Source: Solirubrobacteraceae bacterium
GTDB taxonomy: Bacteria > Actinomycetota > Thermoleophilia > Solirubrobacterales > Solirubrobacteraceae
Reading direction: 5' to 3'
Length of the DNA: 8,172 bases
Assembly: GCA_024710825.1 (NCBI GenBank)
Contig: JANJUA010000252.1
Location: 1-8,172, forward strand
Below, one piece after another: positions 1-8,172 of this stretch (positions are counted from its first letter, which is position 1; each line of letters begins with the position of its first letter). The position numbers and the translations under genes are program-made. Below the pieces are notes generated by a model, which did no database searches, had not been told where the DNA came from, and worked only from the letters and a program-made list of their open reading frames with translations.

Positions 1-374
1 ACCCGGCACGCTTCGGCGACGCTCGCGGCCGGGCGCCGGCGGGCAATCCCCATCATGGGGAACCCGGACCCGCCGGCGCCCAGCGCGATCGCCGCCCGTC
101 CTCCCGAGAGCTCGTGCAACGTCGCCAGCCCCTGGGCCGTCACCGCCGGATGGACCGCGTACGGCTCGGCGATCGCGCCGCCGATGCCGATGCGCTCGGT
201 GGCGAGCGTCGACACCGTCATGCGGACGAGCATGTCGCGGTAGAAGCGCTCGTTGGAGTGCCAGAGGCAGTCGTAGCCGAGGGCCTCCGCGTCGCGGGCG
301 ATGCCGGCCCAGTCCGCGGTCGGCACGTCCGCGATGCTCGGTGACGGGAGCCCGAGGTGGAACGTCAGAGCCAT
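1..374 (-). CDS. LLM-class flavin/F420-dependent monooxygenase, N-terminal part (runs off the window)
   Basis: About 124 codons are present, from the ATG at 374 to the window edge, where the frame is still open. The protein starts MALTFHLGLPSPS, a first beta-strand typical of bacterial luciferase-like TIM barrels. It continues through a helix with ALGYDCLWHSNE and a segment around TERIGIGGAIAEPYAVHP, then LGAGGSGFPMMGIARRRP, which resembles the glycine-rich loop of F420-dependent Mer-like and FMN-dependent members. Family enzymes oxidise or reduce small substrates using FMNH2 or F420. RutA, the uracil ring-opening monooxygenase, is one example, but orthology to RutA is not claimed. The start lies five bases after the M20 stop codon, so it is the fourth protein gene of the regulator operon. 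No strong ribosome site is seen, and coupling to the M20 gene is likely. Cofactor and substrate remain open because the C-terminal two thirds are missing. Confidence 0.85.
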   Translation of the reverse strand, partial: MALTFHLGLPSPSIADVPTADWAGIARDAEALGYDCLWHSNERFYRDMLVRMTVSTLATERIGIGGAIAEPYAVHPAVTAQGLATLHELSGGRAAIALGAGGSGFPMMGIARRRPAASVAEACR

Positions 375-379
375 CGCTG

Positions 380-1651
380 CTAGGCCCCGGCGGCCGCCGC
401 GTGCCTGACCGGTTTGATCTCGTTGCAGACGTTGAGGGCGATCTGCGCGTAGACCTCGGCGCAGCTCACCAGGTCGTCGATCTCCATCGAGCGGTTGCGG
501 ATGCCTCGCGGCGGGCCGTACGTGATGCTGGGGATCCCCATCTCGTTGAAGATGAGGACGTCGCGCCACATGCTCGAGATGACCGGCTCGGCCTGCTCGA
601 CGTCGGCCTCGAACACCTCGCGGTGCGCGGTGCGGATGCCCCCGAGCAGCGGCCCGGTGTCGCCCGCCGGATACGAGCGCCGATACACGAACAGCTCGAC
701 GTCGCCGGCCACGCCCTCGGACTCCAGCAGCTCCAGCAGCTCCCGCCGGATGGCGAGCGGATCGCTCTCGGGCGTCAGCCGGCAGTCGACGTACATCGCG
801 CACAGCTCGGAGGTGCGGGTGATGTGGTACGGGTTGCCGGCGCGGATGGCGCCGATGACGACCTTGGGGACGATCGTGCCGTCCTTGGACTCGTAGCGGA
901 AGCGTCGCTCGTACTCGCGCCCCCAGTTCTGCAGCGCGGGGATCACGAGCGCCGCCCGCACGATCGCGTTCGGGTGGTTGACGTCCACCTCGGCGTCCGG
1001 CGTGAACGGCGTGTACCACTGCTCGTCGCCGTAGACGACGATCTTGAAGAAGGCCTTGCCCGCCTCGATGGAGGCCACCCGGAAGTCGGTGCCCTCGGCG
1101 ACCAGCGCGTAGTCCGCCACGCCGCCGTGCTGGATCAGGTAGCGGGCTCCGGTCTCCTTGCTCATGTACTTCGGCGCCTCGAACTCGTCGACCGGCTCGT
1201 AGCCGATCTCGCCGGTCACCGCGGAGAGCAGCAGGTCGCCGCGCAGCTCGGCACCGGCCCGGCGCAGCGCCGCGGCGGCGATCATGAAGGCGGCCATCGG
1301 ACCCTTGTCGTTGACGATCCCCTCGCCGTGGAGGGTGTCGCCCTCGCGCCACGCGCCATGGTTGCGGTCCTCGTCGGGGTCGCGCAGGCTCCAGCGGTCC
1401 TCGCGGCTGCGGCCCGTGTCCATGTGGCTGTTGAAGATCAGGCTGTAGCCGTCGCCCTGTCCCGGCAGCCGGCCGAGCACGTTGAAGCGCTCCGCGGACA
1501 TGCCGATGCGCCGAGGAGCGAAGCCCTCCCGCCGCATCCACTGGTAGACGAACTCGCCGACCTCGCCCTCGCCGCCGGGCGGGCTCTCGATGTTGCAGAT
1601 GTCCAGCGCGAGCTCGACGAGCTCGTCACGGTCGATGCGCAGATCCGTCAT
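380..1651 (-). CDS. M20-family metallohydrolase (ArgE/DapE/YlmB-like) with atypical active site
   Basis: A 423-residue cytoplasmic enzyme of the M20 zinc amidohydrolase fold, the usual length for deacylases such as ArgE or YlmB. Recognisable elements are FNSHMDTG (H76, D78), GEGIVNDKGPMAA (D115, the bridging ligand position), VTGEIG (E148), AEGTDF (E186) and a C-terminal ITYGPPRG turn. Two expected residues are not where they should be. The pair Glu-Glu of the DEE motif is Gly147-Glu148, so the general-base Glu is replaced. The C-terminal ligand His of the A-H-x-x-x-E motif appears as Met389 in SMEIDDLV. The enzyme may belong to a divergent subfamily. The ATG at 1651 overlaps the stop codon of the cysteine hydrolase (ATGA) and is preceded by a purine-rich GGGGAGAGG, which decides this start over the longer open frame upstream. 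Hydrolysis of an amide or carbamoyl bond is inferred; the substrate is unknown. Confidence 0.88.
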   Translation of the reverse strand: MTDLRIDRDELVELALDICNIESPPGGEGEVGEFVYQWMRREGFAPRRIGMSAERFNVLGRLPGQGDGYSLIFNSHMDTGRSREDRWSLRDPDEDRNHGAWREGDTLHGEGIVNDKGPMAAFMIAAAALRRAGAELRGDLLLSAVTGEIGYEPVDEFEAPKYMSKETGARYLIQHGGVADYALVAEGTDFRVASIEAGKAFFKIVVYGDEQWYTPFTPDAEVDVNHPNAIVRAALVIPALQNWGREYERRFRYESKDGTIVPKVVIGAIRAGNPYHITRTSELCAMYVDCRLTPESDPLAIRRELLELLESEGVAGDVELFVYRRSYPAGDTGPLLGGIRTAHREVFEADVEQAEPVISSMWRDVLIFNEMGIPSITYGPPRGIRNRSMEIDDLVSCAEVYAQIALNVCNEIKPVRHAAAAGA

Positions 1652-2304
1652 GCCTCTCCCCCCGCCCCGACCGGGACCGACGAGCTCTCCAGCAGCGTCT
1701 GGAACTCGTCGAGCTCGAACGCGTCGCCGAAGTAGATGTCGAAGTTGCGCAGGAACGCGTCGTGCAGGTCGTCGAACGAGCCGCCGATGCACTCCTTGAC
1801 GATGACGACGTCGAACTCGCGGAAGTACGCGTCGCGCACCGTCGAGTCGACGCAGTAGCTGCTGTTGACGCCGCAGACGATCAGCACCTGCGTGCCGAGC
1901 GCGCGCAGCGTCGTCTCCAGCGTGGTGTTGTAGAAGCACGACGAGCGCCGCTTGGTGAAGACGATGTCGTCGGGGTGCACGCTGTCGGCGAGGCCCTCGC
2001 AGAAGTCGACGTCGCTCGTGCCGCGGATGCAGACCTCGAGCCCGCGCTTCTGGTGGTGCGTCGGGATCTTCCGACGGCGGACCGTCGCGTCGTTGGGGAT
2101 GTGCTCCTGGCGCGACCAGAGGATCGGGAAGCCGGCGCCGCGGCACAGCTCGATCAGCCGGCGCACCTGCGGGACGATCGCCGACTGGTTGGCGATGCTC
2201 ACCCCCGCGCGGTCGAGGCCGCCGCCGGGGTCGATGAACCCCTTCTGCATGTCGACGACCACCAGGGCGGTGTCCTCTTTGCTGAGCGATGTCAGGTAGG
2301 TCAA
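1648..2304 (-). CDS. Isochorismatase-like cysteine hydrolase (TTG start)
   Basis: A 218-residue protein with the complete isochorismatase-like catalytic triad: Asp18 in VVVDMQKGF, Lys118 in FTKRRSSCFYNT and Cys151 in CGVNSSYCVDSTVRDAYF. The family includes nicotinamidase, N-carbamoylsarcosine amidase and the ureidoacrylate hydrolase RutB. The layout, with a long segment between the Asp and Lys and an FYNT after the Lys, fits the amidase/carbamoylase side rather than isochorismatase proper. The start is placed at the TTG at 2304 because an AGGAGG sits four bases upstream and the homologous strand begins shortly after. The longer open frame upstream is arginine-rich and would overlap the regulator gene. 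The stop overlaps the M20 start by four bases, so the two hydrolases are probably made together and may act on successive intermediates. Substrate specificity is not assignable from sequence. Confidence 0.88.
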   Translation of the reverse strand: MTYLTSLSKEDTALVVVDMQKGFIDPGGGLDRAGVSIANQSAIVPQVRRLIELCRGAGFPILWSRQEHIPNDATVRRRKIPTHHQKRGLEVCIRGTSDVDFCEGLADSVHPDDIVFTKRRSSCFYNTTLETTLRALGTQVLIVCGVNSSYCVDSTVRDAYFREFDVVIVKECIGGSFDDLHDAFLRNFDIYFGDAFELDEFQTLLESSSVPVGAGGEA

Positions 2305-2345
2305 GACGCCTCCTCGTGGTCTCTGCGATCGGCCGCCTGGCTCAT
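2301..2345 (-). CDS. Possible 14-residue leader ORF coupled to the cysteine hydrolase
   Basis: In the 61-base gap between the regulator stop and the cysteine hydrolase start there is a short frame, MSQAADRRDHEEAS, beginning with ATG. A strong GGGAGG (2351-2356) lies five bases upstream. Its TGA overlaps the TTG start of the hydrolase (TTGA), an arrangement typical of translational coupling, and the hydrolase's own AGGAGG lies inside it. The peptide has no recognisable motif and no run of one amino acid that would suggest attenuation. It may be a translated leader, a start relic of a longer hydrolase after a frameshift, or chance in a short gap. The ribosome site is the best argument for translation. 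Confidence 0.35.
   Translation of the reverse strand: MSQAADRRDHEEAS
2309..2315 (-). promoter_or_regulatory. Ribosome binding site fixing the TTG start of the cysteine hydrolase
   Basis: In the transcribed sense this reads GAGGAGG, followed by CGTC and the TTG start at 2304. It is a near-perfect anti-16S match, and no in-frame ATG lies close by, so it decides the unusual TTG start. Confidence 0.7.
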
Positions 2346-2365: not shown

Positions 2366-3103
2366 TCACAGCGCCTCCGGGTCCAGTGGACTGACGTCGA
2401 CGCGGTCGGCGAGCAGCAGCTCGACCGCCGCAAGATGGTCGGTCATGGCCTCGCGCGCGCCCTCTACGTCGCGGTTGGCGATGGCCTGCATGATTCGCTT
2501 GTGCTGCTCGATGCGCTCGGCCAGCTCGTAGCCCGGATGCGCGAGCGGCCGGCGCGTGGTGAGCAGGGCGCGCTGGATCGGCTCGGTGAGGCGGGCGAGG
2601 ACGCGGTTGCCCGAGGCGTCCAGGATCGCCTGGTGGAACTCGATGTCGGCGGTGTAGAAGATCTGCTCGGCCGAGCGGTTCACCGCGGCGCGGCGGCCGC
2701 TGGACTCGAAGTGGGCGAAGACGCTGGCCAGGCGCGCCAGGTCCGCCTCGGTGGCGCGCGACGCGGCACGGGCCGCCGCCTCGACCTCGATGATCCGGCG
2801 GGCGTCGATGTACTCGGCGAGGACGGTCGCGCTGTGCTCGCTCTGGAGCACGACCGTGAGGACGTCGGTGTCCAGGATGTCCCAGCGTCGCCGCTCCGTG
2901 ACGATGGCGCCGGGCTTGCCGTGCTGCACGACGATGAGGCCGCGATCCTCCAGCGCCCGGAGGGTCTCGCGGATCACGCCTCGGCTGACCTCGAACTGCT
3001 GCGCCAGGTCGCTCTCGCGCGGCAGCGGGTCGCCCTCCTTCAGGAGGCCTTCGACGATGTCGACCATCAGGAGGCGCATCGGTTCTCTGGAGCGTCGGGA
3101 CAT
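2366..3103 (-). CDS. GntR-family transcriptional regulator, FCD (FadR) subfamily
   Basis: A 245-residue regulator. The N-terminal winged helix-turn-helix spans about residues 10-70, with PRESDLAQQFEVSRGVIRETLRALEDRGLI as the DNA-recognition region and a wing near QHGKPGAIV. The C-terminal all-helical FCD ligand domain covers about residues 90-232. It has the expected metal/ligand residues Asp153 and His157 (ADIEFHQAI), His201 (EQHKRIMQAI) and His223 (MTDHL). Such domains usually bind small carboxylates or sugar acids, often through a metal, and release DNA on binding. The ATG at 3103 is preferred because a predicted -10 hexamer sits exactly six bases upstream, giving a leaderless transcript. 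Met9 is an alternative with a weak AGAGA upstream. The gene heads an operon with two hydrolases, an M20 enzyme and a monooxygenase. An operator-like palindrome in its own promoter points to autoregulation. Confidence 0.93.
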   Translation of the reverse strand: MSRRSREPMRLLMVDIVEGLLKEGDPLPRESDLAQQFEVSRGVIRETLRALEDRGLIVVQHGKPGAIVTERRRWDILDTDVLTVVLQSEHSATVLAEYIDARRIIEVEAAARAASRATEADLARLASVFAHFESSGRRAAVNRSAEQIFYTADIEFHQAILDASGNRVLARLTEPIQRALLTTRRPLAHPGYELAERIEQHKRIMQAIANRDVEGAREAMTDHLAAVELLLADRVDVSPLDPEAL

Positions 3104-3109
3104 AGAGAG

Positions 3110-3138
3110 ATTGAATCAGTCAATGACAGCCCTGACAA
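3110..3138 (-). promoter_or_regulatory. Promoter with operator A, upstream of the GntR gene
   Basis: Transcribed sense: -35 TTGTCA (3138-3133), 17-base spacer, -10 TTCAAT (3115-3110). Transcription would start at the A of the regulator ATG at 3103. Overlapping the -10 and spacer is a perfect inverted repeat, ATTGA-CTGAT-TCAAT (3124-3110), with five-base arms and a five-base centre. The T-N-N-ACTGAT-N-N-AAT core recurs in the two other unit-start regions. Occupancy by a dimer would block RNA polymerase, so autorepression by the GntR protein is the natural inference. The hexamers match consensus 5/6 and 4/6. Start site and binding are not proven. Confidence 0.65.
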
Positions 3139-3166
3139 GGGCGGGCCCGAACCTTCGGGCCCGCCC
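3139..3166 (-). terminator. GC-rich hairpin terminator after the ABC importer operon
   Basis: A perfect 13-base inverted repeat, GGGCGGGCCCGAA at 3139-3151 against TTCGGGCCCGCCC at 3154-3166. It begins nine bases beyond the binding-protein stop codon. As folded RNA it gives about 12 pairs around a four-base loop. The bases following it in the transcript are TTGTCAGGG, so there is no real U-tract. This is common for actinobacterial terminators but makes efficiency uncertain. The last stem base directly abuts the -35 hexamer of the next unit. Confidence 0.75.
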
Positions 3167-3175
3167 CGGTCGGGG

Positions 3176-4246
3176 TCAGCCGTCGATGTAGTCGTTGGTG
3201 TAGTAGTCCGTGGCCGGCTTGGCCTCTTCGACGAGCCCGGAGGCCGTCAGGTTCTTGATCGTGGCGTCCCAGTCCTCGGGCGCCATCCAGCCGGTCGCCT
3301 TGCCCTCGGAGGCCGGGGTGTGGCCGAGCGACAGGCTCGTCTCCACCGTCTCCTGGACCTGCTCCAGCGGCGCGTTGGCGAGCATCGGCTGGATCGCCTT
3401 GGCGGCGGCCTCGGGGTTCGCCTCGGCCCACTCCCATGCCTCGGCCAGCGCGGCGGTCATCTTGCGCACCGTGTCCTCGTTGGCCTCCAGGTACTCTGGC
3501 AGCACGATGAGGTTCTCGGCGACGTTGAGCTGGCCCGCCTCCCAGTCCTGCGACGGCAGCCTCACGAACGTCTTCCCCGCCTGCTCCTCGAGCGGCGCGA
3601 TGCTCTGCGTCTGGTACAGGTTCACCGAGTCGCCCTTGCCGGAGGCGAACGTCGCCGCCTTGGCGGACGAGTCGACGCGTCGCACGGTCACGCTCTCCGG
3701 ATCGAGTCCGTTCTGCTCGAACAGGTACGGGTAGTACAGCGCGAACCCCTCGGTCGACGAGGTGATCAGCGTCTTGCCCGCCAGATCCTTGATCGTGTTG
3801 ACCGGATCGTCCTCGAACGACACGATCATCTGCGGATCCTGCTGGATGATCCCGTAGACCGCGATGCCCTGAGCGCCCTCGCCGAGCGCCTGGACGTAGG
3901 AGGCGACGTTGACGTAGGCCATGTCGGCCGCACCGCCGTTGAGCACCTGCATCGCGAGCACCGAGCCCTTGCCCGGGTTGAGCGTGAGGTCGATCCCGTG
4001 CTTCTCGAAGATCCCCTCTTCCTTCGCCCCGTACAGGAAGCCGTACTCCTCCTTCGGGATCCAGTCGAGCTGGAGCCGGACGTCGGTCAGATCGGCGGCG
4101 GCGGCGCCCGCCGTCGCGGTGCCGGCGGTCTCGCCGCCCTCGTCCGACCCGCCGCACCCGACGATCGCCGCGAGCGCGACGACACAGCCGACGACGGCGA
4201 GCCTACGGGCCCGTGCGAGCACGGGCAGATCCTGCAAACCCTGCAT
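3176..4246 (-). CDS. ABC importer substrate-binding lipoprotein, NMT1/THI5-like
   Basis: A 356-residue extracytoplasmic binding protein. Residues 1-31 form a lipoprotein signal: arginines near 12-15, a hydrophobic stretch AVVGCVVALAAIVG and the lipobox IVGC with Cys31 as the lipidation site. A low-complexity Gly/Ala/Thr linker follows. The mature part begins VRLQLDWIPKEEYGFLYGAKEEGIFEKHGIDL, the characteristic first lobe of NMT1/THI5-like proteins (ThiY, SsuA and relatives), and continues with a GGAADMAYVNVASY segment and an AGKTLITSSTEGF hinge region. Relatives bind pyrimidine precursors of thiamine, sulfonates, nitriles, hydantoins or other small heterocycles. The ligand cannot be chosen here, although a zwitterionic or heterocyclic nitrogen compound suits the neighbours. 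The ATG at 4246 has AGGAGG (4255-4260) eight bases upstream. It is the last gene of its operon, after the permease. Confidence 0.93.
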   Translation of the reverse strand: MQGLQDLPVLARARRLAVVGCVVALAAIVGCGGSDEGGETAGTATAGAAAADLTDVRLQLDWIPKEEYGFLYGAKEEGIFEKHGIDLTLNPGKGSVLAMQVLNGGAADMAYVNVASYVQALGEGAQGIAVYGIIQQDPQMIVSFEDDPVNTIKDLAGKTLITSSTEGFALYYPYLFEQNGLDPESVTVRRVDSSAKAATFASGKGDSVNLYQTQSIAPLEEQAGKTFVRLPSQDWEAGQLNVAENLIVLPEYLEANEDTVRKMTAALAEAWEWAEANPEAAAKAIQPMLANAPLEQVQETVETSLSLGHTPASEGKATGWMAPEDWDATIKNLTASGLVEEAKPATDYYTNDYIDG

Positions 4247-4270
4247 GGCTCTCTCCTCCTGCTTTGCTCC

Positions 4271-4300
4271 GGCGGCCCGGCCGCCCGGCTCCCAGCCGGG
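4271..4300 (-). repeat. Tandem stem-loops between permease and binding-protein genes
   Basis: Two back-to-back inverted repeats fill most of the 54-base gap. One is CCCGGCT-CCC-AGCCGGG (4284-4300), which starts immediately after the permease stop codon. The other is GGCGGC-CCG-GCCGCC (4271-4285), and the two overlap by two bases. They lie upstream of the binding-protein ribosome site. In importer operons such hairpins often limit read-through or protect a segmental transcript so that the binding protein exceeds the membrane parts. That role is inferred. In sequence this GC-rich, short palindromes can also arise by chance. Confidence 0.55.
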
Positions 4301-5146
4301 TCAGCCCTCGTGCGAGCCGCCCTCCTGTGCCGCCGCACGGGCGGCGAAGTACCAGTGGATCGTGATGCGCTCGACGATCTCGACGATGTAGAAGAGGATG
4401 ATCCCCAGCACCGCCATGAGCGTCACGGACGCGAAGATGAGCGGGGTGTTCAGCGTGCCCTGCCCCTGCAGGACGAGGTAGCCGAGCCCCGACTCCGAAC
4501 CGACGAACTCGCCGACGATCGCCCCGATCACCGCGAGCGCGACGGCGACCTTGAGCCCGCCGAAGATGTTCGGCAGCGCCGTCGGCAGCCGCACCTTCAG
4601 GAAGGACTGCAGCGACGTCGCCCGCATCGAACGGATCAGGTACATCGTGTCGCGGTCGACGGACTGGAGGCCCACGACCGTGGCGACGACGAGCGGGAAG
4701 AACGCGATCGAGAACGCGATCAGCACCTTCGGCAGGATCCCGAAGCCGAACCACAGCACCATCAGCGGCGCGATCGCCACGCGCGGGATCGCCTGCGAGG
4801 CGACGAGCAGCGGGTAGAACACGTTGCGCAAAAACGACGAGTAGACGATCGCGACCGCCAACGGGATCGCGACGACGACCGTCAGCGCGAGGCCCAGCAG
4901 GATCTCGGTCAGCGTCACCCACGTGTCCGCCATCAGCGTCGAGAACTGCGCGACGATCTCCGAGGCGACGGCCGACGGCGGCGGGAGCACGTACTCCTTG
5001 ACGTCGAAGACGACGACCGCCAGCTCCCAGAGCCCGATCAGCGCGGCGAGCGCGAGGACCGGCCCGAGCCAGCCGAACGCGCGCCGGACGTGCTCCATGC
5101 CCAGCCGGCGCCTGGCCGGGGCGGCGGCCAGATCGATGGTCGTCAT
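4301..5146 (-). CDS. ABC importer permease, SsuC/TauC/ThiX-like
   Basis: A 281-residue inner-membrane permease of the binding-protein-dependent type. Hydrophobic segments lie at roughly residues 27-47, 82-104, 111-132, 139-160, 196-213 and 236-256, giving six membrane helices. The cytoplasmic EAA-type loop that contacts the ATPase is visible around 173-195, as RSMRATSLQSFLKVRLPTALP followed by NIFGGLKVA, with the conserved glycine replaced by Ser178. The motif EYVLPPPSAV near residue 51 is characteristic of the nitrate/sulfonate/taurine permease class. The ATG at 5146 overlaps the ATPase stop codon (ATGA), and GAGGGGG lies about ten bases upstream. The much longer open frame upstream simply runs antiphase to the ATPase gene. 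The protein presumably works as a homodimer with the adjacent ATPase and lipoprotein. Confidence 0.93.
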   Translation of the reverse strand: MTTIDLAAAPARRRLGMEHVRRAFGWLGPVLALAALIGLWELAVVVFDVKEYVLPPPSAVASEIVAQFSTLMADTWVTLTEILLGLALTVVVAIPLAVAIVYSSFLRNVFYPLLVASQAIPRVAIAPLMVLWFGFGILPKVLIAFSIAFFPLVVATVVGLQSVDRDTMYLIRSMRATSLQSFLKVRLPTALPNIFGGLKVAVALAVIGAIVGEFVGSESGLGYLVLQGQGTLNTPLIFASVTLMAVLGIILFYIVEIVERITIHWYFAARAAAQEGGSHEG

Positions 5147-5967
5147 CGGGTCAGCACCCCCTCGCGGACGAACAGCTCGCGCACGTGGGCGACGTGGCCG
5201 GCGAACTCGGGCGCGCTCTCCAGAGCGGGGGTGCGCGGCCGCGGCAGGTCGATGTCGATGATCTCCGCGATCCGACCGGGGCGGCTCGTCATCACCACGA
5301 CGCGGTCCGAGAGGAGCACGGCCTCCGGGATGCTGTGGGTGATGAAGAGGACGGAGACGCCCGAGCTCTGATGGATCTCCAGCAGGTCGGCGCTCATCCG
5401 CTCTCGCGTGAGCGCGTCCAGGGCGCCGAACGGCTCGTCCATGAGGAGCAGCTCGGGCTCGTGGAGCAGCGCTCGGCAGATCGACACGCGCTGGCGCATG
5501 CCGCCGGAGAGCTCGTAGGGATAGCGGTCGTCGAAGCCCTCCAGGCCGGCGAGTCGCAGCAACTCGGCGGCGCGCGCTCGGTGCTTGTCCCCGTTGAGGC
5601 CGCGCACCTCCGACTGGAGCATCACGTTGCGCAGAACGGTGCGCCACTCGAGCAGCGCGTCGCGCTGGAAGACGACGCCGAGCCGCGGATGCGCGCCGTC
5701 GACCGGCTCGCCGTCGATCTCGATGTCGCCCGACGACGCCTGGACGAGACCGGCGACCATCGTCAGCAGCGTGCTCTTGCCGCAGCCGCTCGGGCCGACC
5801 ACCGAGACGAACTCGCCGCGCGCGATCTGAAATGACGCGCCCGCGACCGCGTCCACCGTTCCCCGCCGCGACTTGTAGGTCTTGGTCACGTCCCGCAGCG
5901 CAAGGTGCGCCGGCGGGTCCGGACGGTCCTGCACCGTCGCGGGCGCTGAGCTCTCCGCCATGCTCAT
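5143..5967 (-). CDS. ABC importer ATPase, SsuB/TauB/ThiZ-like
   Basis: A 274-residue nucleotide-binding subunit with every diagnostic motif: Walker A GPSGCGKST (58-66), Q-loop Gln101 in VVFQRDALLEW, signature LSGGMRQRV (153-161), Walker B LLLMDEPFG (173-181), D-loop ALDALT and switch His211 in FITHSI. The Q-loop and the SRPGRI segment near residue 228 place it in the nitrate/sulfonate/taurine group. The start is chosen at the ATG at 5967 (MSMAESS), with Met3 equally possible. A GTG at 6087 would add 40 arginine-rich residues unlike the family and is disfavoured. The chosen ATG has no clear ribosome site but overlaps the stop of a small upstream frame, which may supply ribosomes by coupling. 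It is the first gene of the importer operon and overlaps the permease start by four bases. Confidence 0.93.
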   Translation of the reverse strand: MSMAESSAPATVQDRPDPPAHLALRDVTKTYKSRRGTVDAVAGASFQIARGEFVSVVGPSGCGKSTLLTMVAGLVQASSGDIEIDGEPVDGAHPRLGVVFQRDALLEWRTVLRNVMLQSEVRGLNGDKHRARAAELLRLAGLEGFDDRYPYELSGGMRQRVSICRALLHEPELLLMDEPFGALDALTRERMSADLLEIHQSSGVSVLFITHSIPEAVLLSDRVVVMTSRPGRIAEIIDIDLPRPRTPALESAPEFAGHVAHVRELFVREGVLTR

Positions 5968-6056
5968 GCGCGCTCGAAGCGCCCGGGGACCTGCGCGCGC
6001 ATCGCGGTTCGTCGACTCGTGCGGCGGCGCGCTGCGTTGGCGTACCTGAAGGCCAT
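5964..6056 (-). CDS. Possible 30-residue upstream ORF coupled to the ABC ATPase
   Basis: Within the 5' leader of the importer operon an ATG at 6056 opens a 30-codon frame. It starts MAFRYANAARRRTS, is strongly arginine-rich, and its TGA overlaps the ATPase ATG (ATGA). AGAGGGG lies nine bases before the ATG. No domain is recognisable, and the composition resembles that of chance frames in GC-rich DNA. The overlap with a start codon that itself lacks a ribosome site is the only real support for translation. A regulatory leader is possible but unproven. Confidence 0.25.
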   Translation of the reverse strand: MAFRYANAARRRTSRRTAMRAQVPGRFERA

Positions 6057-6110
6057 ACCCCGGTTCCCCTCTCCTCGCTCCCGGCACCTACCCCGGATGC
6101 CGTGCGAGAG

Positions 6111-6139
6111 ATTCGATCAGTTGAGGTCCGCTCTGTCAA
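6111..6139 (-). promoter_or_regulatory. Promoter with operator B, upstream of the ABC importer operon
   Basis: Transcribed sense: a perfect -35 TTGACA (6139-6134), 17-base spacer, -10 TCGAAT (6116-6111, four of six to consensus). The predicted start near 6103 leaves a leader of about 136 bases before the ATPase ATG. The spacer and -10 contain CTCAACTGATCGAAT (6125-6111), which shares the T-N-N-ACTGAT-N-N-AAT core with the elements at 3110-3124 and 8154-8168, plus the following CTCTC with the first of these. The arms are less symmetrical than in operator A. The promoter begins only four bases beyond the aldolase stop codon. Confidence 0.7.
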
Positions 6140-6143
6140 CCCC

Positions 6144-7175
6144 TTATGGCGAAGAAATCGCCGCGGCGATGGCCGGCACCGCGCGATCGACTTCCCCGGG
6201 CCCGATGTCGAGGTGCGTCCACAGCCTCACGGCCTCCCCGCCCGACCCGGGCGACGCCAGGACGCCGCGCGACGCGAGCCGGCCGATCGCGTCCGCGCCG
6301 GCGAGTCCCATGCCCGAGGCGTCGATCAGCACGCAGTTCGTCTCGACCGCGGCAGGATCGACCGCCACGCCGGCGGCGGCGAGGCCGTCGGCCAGGCGGC
6401 GGGCGTTGACGTGGTCGTCCTCGAGGCGGGTGACGTGCTCGTCGAGCGCGTACACGCCCGCCGCCGCGACGACGCCCGCCTGGCGCATCGCCCCGCCCAG
6501 CAGGCGCCGGCGCTCGCGCGCCTCGTCGATCAGGCTCGCCGAGCCGGCGAGCAGCGCACCGAACGGGCAGCCCAGGCCCTTCGTGAGGCACAGCGTGACG
6601 GCGTCGAAGGCGCCTCCCCAGGCGCTCGCCGGCGTCGCCGTCGCCACGGCGGCGTTCAAGAGGCGGGCGCCGTCGAGGTGCGCGGTCAGGCCGAGCTCGC
6701 GGGCCGCCGCGACGACGTCGAGGGCGAGGCGCACCGGCCACACGCGCCCGCCGGCGTCGGCGTGTGTGTTCTCGATGGTCACGACGCCGCTCGGCTCCAC
6801 CGCTCCCGTCTGCGAGCGCGCGGCCCGGTGGAGGTCCTCGGGCTCGAACGTCCCGCCGGTGCCCTCGACCCCGCGGGCCATGAGCCCCGCGACGACGGCC
6901 GCGCCGCCGAGCTCACGCTGGAAGACGTGCGACGCGGCGTCGCCGATCAGGTCGTCGCCGGGCTTCGCCAGCGTCCACAGCGCGATCAGGTTTCCCATCG
7001 TCGCCGAGGTGACGAAGACGGCCGCCTCCTGTCCGAGCAGCCCCGCCGCCCGCTCCTCGAGCGCGCGCACCGTCGGGTCCTCGCCCCTCTGCTCGTCACC
7101 GACCTCGGCCTCGGCCATCGCCCGGCGCATCGCCGGCGTCGGCTTCGTCGCCGTGTCGCCGCGGAGGTCGATCAC
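6144..7175 (-). CDS. Low-specificity threonine aldolase-like PLP enzyme
   Basis: A 343-residue fold-type I PLP enzyme of the beta-eliminating lyase/threonine aldolase family. It starts IDLRGDTATKPTPAMRRAMAEAEVGDEQRGEDPT, very close to the family N-terminal signature. Further marks are SHVF with His83 (cofactor-stacking position), ENTHADAGG (135-143), HLDGARLLNA with Asp168 and Arg171, the Schiff-base lysine Lys199 in LCLTKGLGCPFG, and GGAMRQAG (228-234). Family enzymes split threonine or other beta-hydroxy amino acids into glycine and an aldehyde; the preferred side chain is not predictable. The GTG at 7175 overlaps the ureohydrolase stop (GTGA) and lacks its own ribosome site, so translation is probably coupled. 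The frame extends open far upstream, but that part is a shadow of the ureohydrolase gene. The TAA stop lies four bases from the importer promoter. Confidence 0.9.
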   Translation of the reverse strand: MIDLRGDTATKPTPAMRRAMAEAEVGDEQRGEDPTVRALEERAAGLLGQEAAVFVTSATMGNLIALWTLAKPGDDLIGDAASHVFQRELGGAAVVAGLMARGVEGTGGTFEPEDLHRAARSQTGAVEPSGVVTIENTHADAGGRVWPVRLALDVVAAARELGLTAHLDGARLLNAAVATATPASAWGGAFDAVTLCLTKGLGCPFGALLAGSASLIDEARERRRLLGGAMRQAGVVAAAGVYALDEHVTRLEDDHVNARRLADGLAAAGVAVDPAAVETNCVLIDASGMGLAGADAIGRLASRGVLASPGSGGEAVRLWTHLDIGPGEVDRAVPAIAAAISSP

Positions 7176-8104
7176 GCGGCGGCGTCGTGCCGGGCGGCCA
7201 GGAAGGTGAGGAGGGCCGAGGCCGCCAGATGCGCGGTCATCCCGCCGAGGTCGTGCTCCGGAGCCACCTCCATGACGTCGATCCCGAGCGCCTTGGGATG
7301 CCGTCCGAACGCCCAGGCGATCTCCAGCAGCTGGTGGCCCGTGAGCCCGGCGACGGCGGGAGTCCCCGTCCCGGGCGCGTGGGCCGCGTCGACAGCGTCG
7401 ATGTCGATCGACAGCCAGATCCCGGTCGTGCCGTCGCCGGCGAGCTCGAGCGCGCGCGCGACGTGCGCGTCGACGCCGTCGCGGTGCAGCTCGCGGGCCG
7501 AGACCACGCTCGCGCCCGCGTCGCGCAGGTAGCGGCGGTAGACGCCGCTGTTGTGCCAGCCGCCGATGCCGAGCTGGACGACGTTGCGGCCCGCGACGTA
7601 GCCGTCGAGCCGCTCCATGGCGTAGCGGAACGGCACGCCCGCCGAGACCTCGCCGTGCTGGGAGACGCGGACGTCGTGGTGCGCGTCGATCGAGATCACG
7701 CCGATCGGGCCGGCCACCGTCCGCGCCAGCCCGCGGAGCACCGGGAAGGTGAGGCCGTGGTCGCCGCCGAGGACCACGAGCGGCGCGTCGTCGCCGGCCA
7801 GCACGGCGACGACCTCCGACACCCGGTCCCACGTCTCGTCGATCCGCGTCTGGATCACGTCCACGTCGCCGTGGTCCGCGACGCGCGGGGCATCGGCGAG
7901 GTCGACGTCGAAGTTGGCGTCGTAGCACAGGCAGGTCGCGAGGGCGGCGCGGTTGGCGCCCGGCCCGAAGCGCGACCCGCGCCGGCCGAGCGTCGTCGTG
8001 TCGAACGGCAGCCCGACCACGTTCGCGAGCGCACGCTCGACCTCGGCGGCCGGCCGGACGAGGTCGGCGACCGGGTCGTCGTGCTCGTCGCGCAGCGCGG
8101 GCAC
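7172..8104 (-). CDS. Ureohydrolase family protein (agmatinase/guanidino-acid hydrolase type)
   Basis: A 310-residue Mn-dependent hydrolase of the arginase/agmatinase superfamily. The binuclear metal ligands are all present: His116 in GGDHGLTFP, Asp140-His142-Asp144 in SIDAHHDVR, and Asp234-Asp236 in SIDIDAVDAAHAPGTGTP, with Glu279 in DVMEVAPEHD. In the third motif the usual DP is Asp239-Ala240. The PGTGTP and GVPFR features favour the agmatinase/guanidinobutyrase/proclavaminate-amidinohydrolase branch over true arginase. The reaction would release urea (or, less likely, formamide) from a guanidino (or formimino) compound. The GTG at 8104 is the only conventional start near the homologous region. 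The frame stays open to the window edge and no ribosome site precedes the GTG, so the N-terminus is uncertain. It heads a two-gene unit with the aldolase and has its own operator-bearing promoter. Confidence 0.9.
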   Translation of the reverse strand: MPALRDEHDDPVADLVRPAAEVERALANVVGLPFDTTTLGRRGSRFGPGANRAALATCLCYDANFDVDLADAPRVADHGDVDVIQTRIDETWDRVSEVVAVLAGDDAPLVVLGGDHGLTFPVLRGLARTVAGPIGVISIDAHHDVRVSQHGEVSAGVPFRYAMERLDGYVAGRNVVQLGIGGWHNSGVYRRYLRDAGASVVSARELHRDGVDAHVARALELAGDGTTGIWLSIDIDAVDAAHAPGTGTPAVAGLTGHQLLEIAWAFGRHPKALGIDVMEVAPEHDLGGMTAHLAASALLTFLAARHDAAA

Positions 8105-8153
8105 GAGCCCGGGCGCGGCGATGAGATGTGGAGCGGACGGCGACAGGCGGCTT

Positions 8154-8172
8154 ATTGGATCAGTGGACGAGT
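8154..8172 (-). promoter_or_regulatory. Partial promoter with operator C, upstream of the ureohydrolase gene
   Basis: Transcribed sense GTCCACTGATCCAAT (8168-8154) matches the T-N-N-ACTGAT-N-N-AAT core of the other two sites. Its last six bases, TCCAAT, correspond to the -10 of the complete promoters. The matching -35 would fall at 8177-8182, outside the window. Transcription would begin near 8147, giving a leader of about 43 bases to the GTG at 8104. Confidence 0.55.

Follow-up and report, generated by a model that had tools for sequence, protein, structure and literature searches.

A dyad enclosing the -10 hexamer as the predicted operator of an FCD-GntR regulator with a probable local regulon in a Solirubrobacteraceae bacterium

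Three transcription units preceded by one element

The DNA analysed here (the window) is one entire contig of 8,172 bp (C19 of genome G000) from a Solirubrobacteraceae bacterium, whose assembly holds 3,038,914 bp in 444 contigs and is 90% complete. Its nine Pfam-recognised genes, all on the minus strand, form three transcription units: unit A (gntR, isochorismatase, M20 and LLM oxidoreductase genes), unit B (ATPase, permease and binding protein) and unit C (ureohydrolase and GntG-type aldolase). Before each unit stands a similar element: the minus-strand 15-mers at 3110-3124, 6111-6125 and 8154-8168 share T-N-N-ACTGAT-N-N-AAT and are invariant in 10 of their last 14 columns, both as claimed in an earlier reading made from the sequence alone (hereafter the sequence-only reading). 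This observation is real and goes beyond chance. The three elements are probably operators for the FCD-GntR regulator whose gene lies among them and whose bound dimer would block RNA polymerase within a local regulon; it is very likely that this regulon reading is right in substance. The regulator gene and the predicted operator and promoter elements are listed here (ranks are those given by the cross-genome matrix described below).

2366..3103, minus: FCD-GntR regulator, predicted repressor of the three units (Pfam FCD 6.1e-27, GntR 4.1e-15)
3106..3120, minus: predicted operator 1, ACTGAT-TCA-ATCTCT, in the gntR promoter, with 2 nt between its end and the start codon ATG; 12/12 to ASWGATNNNATCWST; matrix rank 1
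3110..3115, minus: -10 hexamer TTCAAT in operator 1; the A of the gntR ATG lies 7 nt downstream
3133..3138, minus: -35 hexamer TTGTCA of gntR (5/6; 17-bp spacer)
6107..6121, minus: predicted operator 2, ACTGAT-CGA-ATCTCT, in the promoter of the ATPase-permease-binding-protein unit; 12/12; matrix rank 2
6111..6116, minus: -10 hexamer TCGAAT in operator 2
6134..6139, minus: -35 hexamer TTGACA of the transporter unit (6/6; 17-bp spacer)
8150..8164, minus: predicted half-site, operator 3, ACTGAT-CCA-ATAAGC, before the ureohydrolase-aldolase unit; 10/12; matrix rank 3
8154..8159, minus: -10-like hexamer TCCAAT at operator 3, in the register of copies 1 and 2; its -35 would fall past the contig end

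The register against the promoter hexamers in the two complete cases, TTGTCA-17-TTCAAT and TTGACA-17-TCGAAT, is the one described by the sequence-only reading. That reading had assigned the AAT to the -10 and the ACTGAT to the spacer. The element extends beyond the spacer: in copies 1 and 2 the -10 hexamer occupies dyad positions 6-11, and the dyad encloses the entire hexamer. All three -10 hexamers lack A at the second position, and a consensus promoter scan requiring A there listed none of the three promoters. Because the ATG at 3103 coincides with the expected transcription start, gntR is predicted to have a leaderless mRNA. Copy 2 differs, with ~50 nt between it and the first likely start. 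At unit C the ureohydrolase frame contains no in-frame ATG, GTG or TTG between 8104 and the contig end, and ureohydrolase homologues extend upstream of GTG 8104, to near CTG 8146, 3 nt past copy 3. The true start is thus likely upstream of 8104, near CTG 8146, where a leaderless CTG start is possible.

As the sequence-only reading had noted, ACTGAT occurs at three places only in the window, which taken alone is not surprising (1.71 expected; three or more in 53 of 200 shuffles). On the other hand, the longer pattern TNNACTGATNNAAT has exactly 3 matches in the 3,038,914-bp assembly, all within this 8,172-bp contig, and its reversed form has none. As TNNACTGATNNAAT was drawn from the three window copies, its genome count is descriptive, while the cross-genome tests below are independent of that count. 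The looser form A[C/G][A/T]GAT-N3-ATC[A/T][C/G]T is matched at 12/12 by copies 1 and 2 and at 10/12 by copy 3, and at up to one mismatch it finds copies 1 and 2 only in the whole assembly. Both halves of the dyad are present in copies 1 and 2, one half of each having a C, and these two copies share a CTCT extension of the dyad that is absent from copy 3, which keeps one intact half and, with 4 mismatches to ACTGATNNNATCTCT, falls outside the list at up to 3 mismatches.

The dyad in other genomes

Relatives of the regulator were sought at E<=1e-30 in 201 genomes (its own and 200 others). Twelve other genomes hold such a relative, 34-51% identical, and 15 stretches around these genes (258 kb) were examined for sites. 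The element conserved across the stretches is a 15-bp dyad, AG[A/T]GAT-N3-ATC[A/T]CT, often perfect (e.g., AGTGAT-TAG-ATCACT). Sites matching at least 11 of the 12 defined positions were found in 9 of the 15 gntR-bearing stretches (18 sites) as compared to none of 21 control stretches (343 kb). Two sets made up the controls: seven same-order stretches fetched for their M20 gene, one of them with a GntR piece of 33% identity, and 14 loci from distant bacteria, retrieved because they hold remote GntR relatives (27-36% identity to the regulator) and used as controls only. Moreover, the exact dyad AGWGATNNNATCWCT is present at 18 places in 13 of the 201 genomes (reversed control: one place), with 7 of the 12 other gntR genomes carrying it versus 6 of the 188 without a gntR relative (Fisher p 5e-7), and, where gntR genomes have exact sites (12 in all), 9 are no more than 20 kb away from a gntR gene. 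The window's own genome has no exact AGWGATNNNATCWCT, since both full copies carry a C in one half.

The centres of the conserved dyad in the window are 3113, 6114 and 8157. The sequence-only reading had drawn a different symmetry, ATTGA-N5-TCAAT centred at 3117, and held the gntR-promoter copy to be the most symmetrical. Copy 1 does form a good inverted repeat there; copies 2 and 3 lack that symmetry, and the sites of other genomes are symmetrical about the other centre, making it very improbable that the dyad centred at 3117 is the operator. The dyad as drawn was thus off by 4 bp, and the ranking of the gntR copy by a symmetry that is not the one conserved elsewhere is unsupported. The remainder of that interpretation, a GntR operator before three units of a small regulon, is well supported by the rarity of the element in the assembly and by its cross-genome association.

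A 23-column matrix was built from 20 non-redundant sites of other genomes, picked with the dyad consensus and including no window sequence. Within the window it ranked 3106 first (28.3 bits), 6107 second (20.2) and 8150 third (8.1), the last in a tie with 3114, which overlaps copy 1; these ranks were reached by 0, 0 and 1 of 300 Markov shuffles respectively. Over 459 kb of other loci (including nine fetched for the exact motif), 0, 4 and 47 positions scored at least as high as copies 1, 2 and 3. That the three promoters resemble one another by chance, as the 53 of 200 shuffles with three ACTGAT in 8 kb might suggest, is exceedingly improbable given the rarity of TNNACTGATNNAAT and of the dyad in the assembly, the matrix ranks and the 9 of 15 versus 0 of 21 stretches; for copies 1 and 2 the cross-genome matrix itself speaks against it. 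As predicted sites, copies 1 and 2 are secure.

Copy 3, in contrast, is put forward on its shared half, its register and the rarity of the longer pattern. Its 4 mismatches to copies 1 and 2, its score of only 8.1 bits and a -35 lying beyond the contig end would fit a chance half-match, with copies 1 and 2 as the only operators and the ureohydrolase unit outside the regulon. We consider this rather unlikely: i) copy 3 is one of the three genome-wide TNNACTGATNNAAT matches, shares their strand and directly precedes a unit; ii) the homologues' suggested start near CTG 8146 gives a spacing as at other sites; iii) gntR and ureohydrolase homologues share their longest contig size in two cases (17,652 for regulator homologue P0006 and ureohydrolase P0058; 19,418 for P0017 and P0059), which suggests that the two genes may remain linked. 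Closer homologues exist in sequence collections, here given without gene context: regulators 97, 89, 87, 80, 79 and 75% identical, and ureohydrolases 91, 78 and 71%.

The place of the dyad over the promoter recurs in other genomes. Of 20 sites outside the window, 7 have a -35 of at least 5/6 located 16-19 bp from the equivalent hexamer (control 1.25%). At 8 of the 20, a start codon followed by 100 or more open codons lies 2-3 nt beyond the dyad (control 4.8%). This raises the question of whether the element marks the promoters of a special sigma factor, or is bound by another regulator, rather than being an operator of the window's GntR protein: its conserved part includes the -10, a TTGAC-like -35 is present at 9 of 23 sites, and an IclR-type regulator gene lies near gntR in one stretch (L040). 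However, the element is a two-fold dyad with many exact palindromes, which a promoter need not be, 14 of the 23 sites have no -35 of at least 5/6 on either strand, and across genomes the dyad tracks the presence of gntR relatives. Such an origin is therefore improbable, and the window's GntR protein is the preferred candidate.

Several observations weigh against the GntR-operator reading. First, 6 of the 15 gntR-bearing stretches have no site at 11/12 or better (4 of the 12 other genomes: G014, G076, G080 and G094), and one exact dyad each occurs in G007, G030, G050, G068, G135 and G143 (L092-L097), which have no gntR homologue at E<=1e-30; these are chance matches or sites of other regulators. 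Second, the data were already in view when the consensus was chosen, and two untargeted dyad counts over whole stretches failed to reveal the dyad; such exact-dyad counts are uninformative because they are swamped by coding bias. Restricted to the intergenic parts of the gntR-bearing stretches, a count of 1,179 exact dyads put GTGAT-N3-ATCAC and AGTGA-N5-TCACT, which represent the same sites (3 copies), in second and third place behind a GC-rich dyad. Third, 12 of the 20 outside sites lack a start codon at 2-3 nt and 13 lack a good -35, and the level of copy 3 is the one reached at 47 positions elsewhere. Fourth, the 201 genomes offered no orthologous cluster for comparison. Wider searches found no further gntR homologue in 232 genomes of the order at 1e-30, nor in samples of 399 genomes of the class and 396 of the phylum at 1e-40.

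The regulator and the genes around it

Both the GntR winged helix and the FCD domain of the regulator score above their Pfam cut-offs, while its scores for NanR, LldR and PdhR fall below those of NCBIfam (104.6 vs 260, 96.1 vs 311 and 88.2 vs 330 bits respectively). It has 71 matches in the Protein Data Bank (PDB) at E<=0.001, with McbR, NanR, Atu1419 and FadR among the matches listed (best 50 of 71); the best is 7c7e (2.1e-27), which we take to be DgoR. The window regulator was aligned with 51 of 55 homologues (P0001 and P0053-P0055 left out). None of these 52 proteins has Arg at the position of FadR Arg35 (S, T, A, V, M, L or Q occur there), while that of Arg45 (R41 in the window regulator) holds Arg in 51, and Arg49 and Gly66 are kept in all 52. 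D153 (47 of 52), H157 (52), H201 (52) and H223 (50), presumably the Asp/His metal ligands of the FCD domain, are likewise conserved. The AlphaFold model (pLDDT 88.4) shows seven C-terminal helices after residue 78; as six are given for the VanR group in the available part of PMC12042122, this count would place the regulator in the FadR group.

In the portion of PMC4494728 at hand, the Arg35 position is tied to the G/C of TKGT/ACMA, and a recognition-helix Arg is the main base-reading residue; for Atu1419, the accessible text of PMC7797058 reports that binding was abolished by changing the G read by Arg45 to A. As the core of the dyad has AT where FadR sites have GT, Arg45 (here R41) would read the G of GAT, one bp further out than in canonical FadR sites. 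Stretch L043 (G160) carries, at 13530-14344, a GntR relative in which Thr replaces Arg45, as it also does in P0025, and Leu replaces Glu34; an intergenic perfect dyad, AGTCAT-CGT-ATGACT, follows the gene. The Thr and the G-to-C change hint at covariation, which proves nothing because C-bearing half-sites also occur beside Arg45 regulators (L041 at 5031; L044 at 2932 and 4402; L087 at 2364).

The remaining genes and features of the window are the following.

1648..2307, minus: isochorismatase-family hydrolase, unit A (Pfam 5.2e-39; nearest solved structure RutB, 2.4e-22)
383..1651, minus: M20 peptidase/deacylase-like hydrolase, unit A (Pfam 2.2e-11)
3..374, minus: LLM-class (Bac_luciferase) oxidoreductase, unit A, truncated by the contig end (Pfam 4.1e-20)
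5143..5967, minus: ABC transporter ATPase, unit B (Pfam 5.3e-33)
4301..5146, minus: ABC transporter permease, unit B (Pfam 2.9e-30)
3176..4246, minus: NMT1-type binding protein, unit B (Pfam 7.5e-30)
7172..8104, minus: ureohydrolase (arginase family), unit C (Pfam 1.3e-65)
6144..7175, minus: GntG/threonine-aldolase-type pyridoxal phosphate (PLP) enzyme, unit C (NCBIfam NF041359, 331 bits, cut-off 230)
3138..3167, minus: 13-bp GC-rich hairpin between the binding-protein gene and the gntR -35 (-41.4 kcal/mol, z -5.2)

The hairpin, which abuts the gntR -35, folds better than all of 200 shuffles (0/200 fold equally well) and is terminator-like without a T-run; it is likely the end of unit B. Upstream of the ATPase gene, an Arg-rich frame of 30 residues (MAFRYANAARRRTSRRTAMRAQVPGRFERA) lies at 5964-6056 on the minus strand, preceded by a purine-rich stretch, and its TGA overlaps the ATPase ATG as ATGA; translational coupling between the two is possible. 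Judging by its enzymes, the cluster may hydrolyse a small molecule that carries an amide or amidine group; a guanidino or ureido substrate is one possibility.

At E<=1e-60 no ureohydrolase was found in the 201 genomes beyond the window's own, and the 15 stretches around gntR relatives contain no hydrolase, permease, binding protein, aldolase or ureohydrolase of the window, with only weak ATPase matches (29-36% identity). The 30 proteins scanned from 6 of these stretches include 2-hydroxyacid dehydrogenase, HpcH aldolase, histidinol-dehydrogenase-like, short-chain dehydrogenase (SDR), thiamine pyrophosphate (TPP) enzyme, gluconolactonase-like and sugar-type ABC proteins. Predicted operators of the same kind are seen in L038, L040-L042, L044 and L045, with up to three gntR paralogues per genome; in L040-L042, L044 and L045, whose gene families were scanned, they lie within clusters of the dehydrogenase, aldolase, TPP and gluconolactonase-like types just named. 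Elsewhere in the order, signals of this kind accompany gntR relatives among genes whose predicted nutrients are quite unlike those of the window's cluster. M20 matches occur in five other genomes (L080-L086), and none of these stretches has a site at 11/12 or better. Two of them, L082 and L086, have the M20 gene near ABC-transporter genes, together with LLM and isochorismatase matches in L082 and the 33%-identical GntR piece in L086; they are clusters of similar make-up without the AG[A/T]GAT-N3-ATC[A/T]CT operator.

Proposed mechanism and comparison with known systems

Under the mechanism proposed here, an FCD-GntR dimer would bind the 15-bp dyad AG[A/T]GAT-N3-ATC[A/T]CT enclosing the -10 and likely keep RNA polymerase off until an effector releases it. 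A dimer bound there would hide the -10, which makes occlusion the simplest account of the predicted repression, and as the dyad over the -10 often stands 2-3 nt before a start codon, autorepression by occlusion is a likely mechanism. The window GntR protein would thus bind and repress, and all three units, gntR included, would answer to one signal. Since the FCD metal ligands are conserved, the effector may be a small, likely metal-coordinated acid.

A wider proposal, for and against which we see the balance as even, is that an FCD-GntR subfamily, seen in a single order within the searched genomes, has altered the FadR reading code: lacking Arg35, it would read AGWGAT-N3-ATCWCT, with Arg45 on the G one bp outward, an operator fused with the -10 of leaderless promoters, and a code reused for unrelated pathways (this amidine/amide-type cluster and sugar-acid or polyol clusters). 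As a type of system the predicted local regulon is ordinary; its operator code is a variant. A search of open PubMed Central papers found no published description of the dyad or of a binding site for such regulators, and no paper combining three of five cluster terms. The analysis turns a three-site motif seen by eye into a defined predicted operator transferable to other genomes, and predicts which genes of a catabolic cluster stand under one regulator. It also offers a natural test of DNA choice by FadR-type proteins: a group lacking Arg35 allows the connection published for this residue and the operator's G/C to be studied.

Known FCD regulators, as far as the available parts of the cited papers describe them, share the architecture and differ in the operator. 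The FadR subfamily (PMC4494728) is alike in its GntR winged helix and FCD domain, 3 bp between half-sites, the Arg45 and Gly66 positions and a local catabolic regulon; its operators are TKGT-N3-ACMA with a GT/AC core, whereas the core of the present dyad is GAT-N3-ATC (A5 T6 and A10 T11 in 40 of 40 symmetrised rows of the cross-genome matrix) and the present group has no Arg at the Arg35 position (0 of 52). DgoR of E. coli, the D-galactonate repressor (PMC12288454), is likewise an FCD regulator with inverted repeats overlapping the promoter that it represses, but its IR1, TTGTAGTACAA, has the GT-N3-AC core and its regulon is of the sugar-acid type. Atu1419 of Agrobacterium (VanR group; PMC7797058) is an FCD repressor whose palindromes overlap the -10 box and whose Arg45 reads an essential G; it differs in its operator (ATGTATACAT), in being a tetramer and in acting on hydroxycinnamate genes. 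Finally, in AlkR of Pseudomonas (PMC12042122), also an FCD repressor, the dyad covers the -10 region and precedes the start codon, as predicted here; its operator, ATTGTCAGACAAT, keeps the usual GT/AC core.

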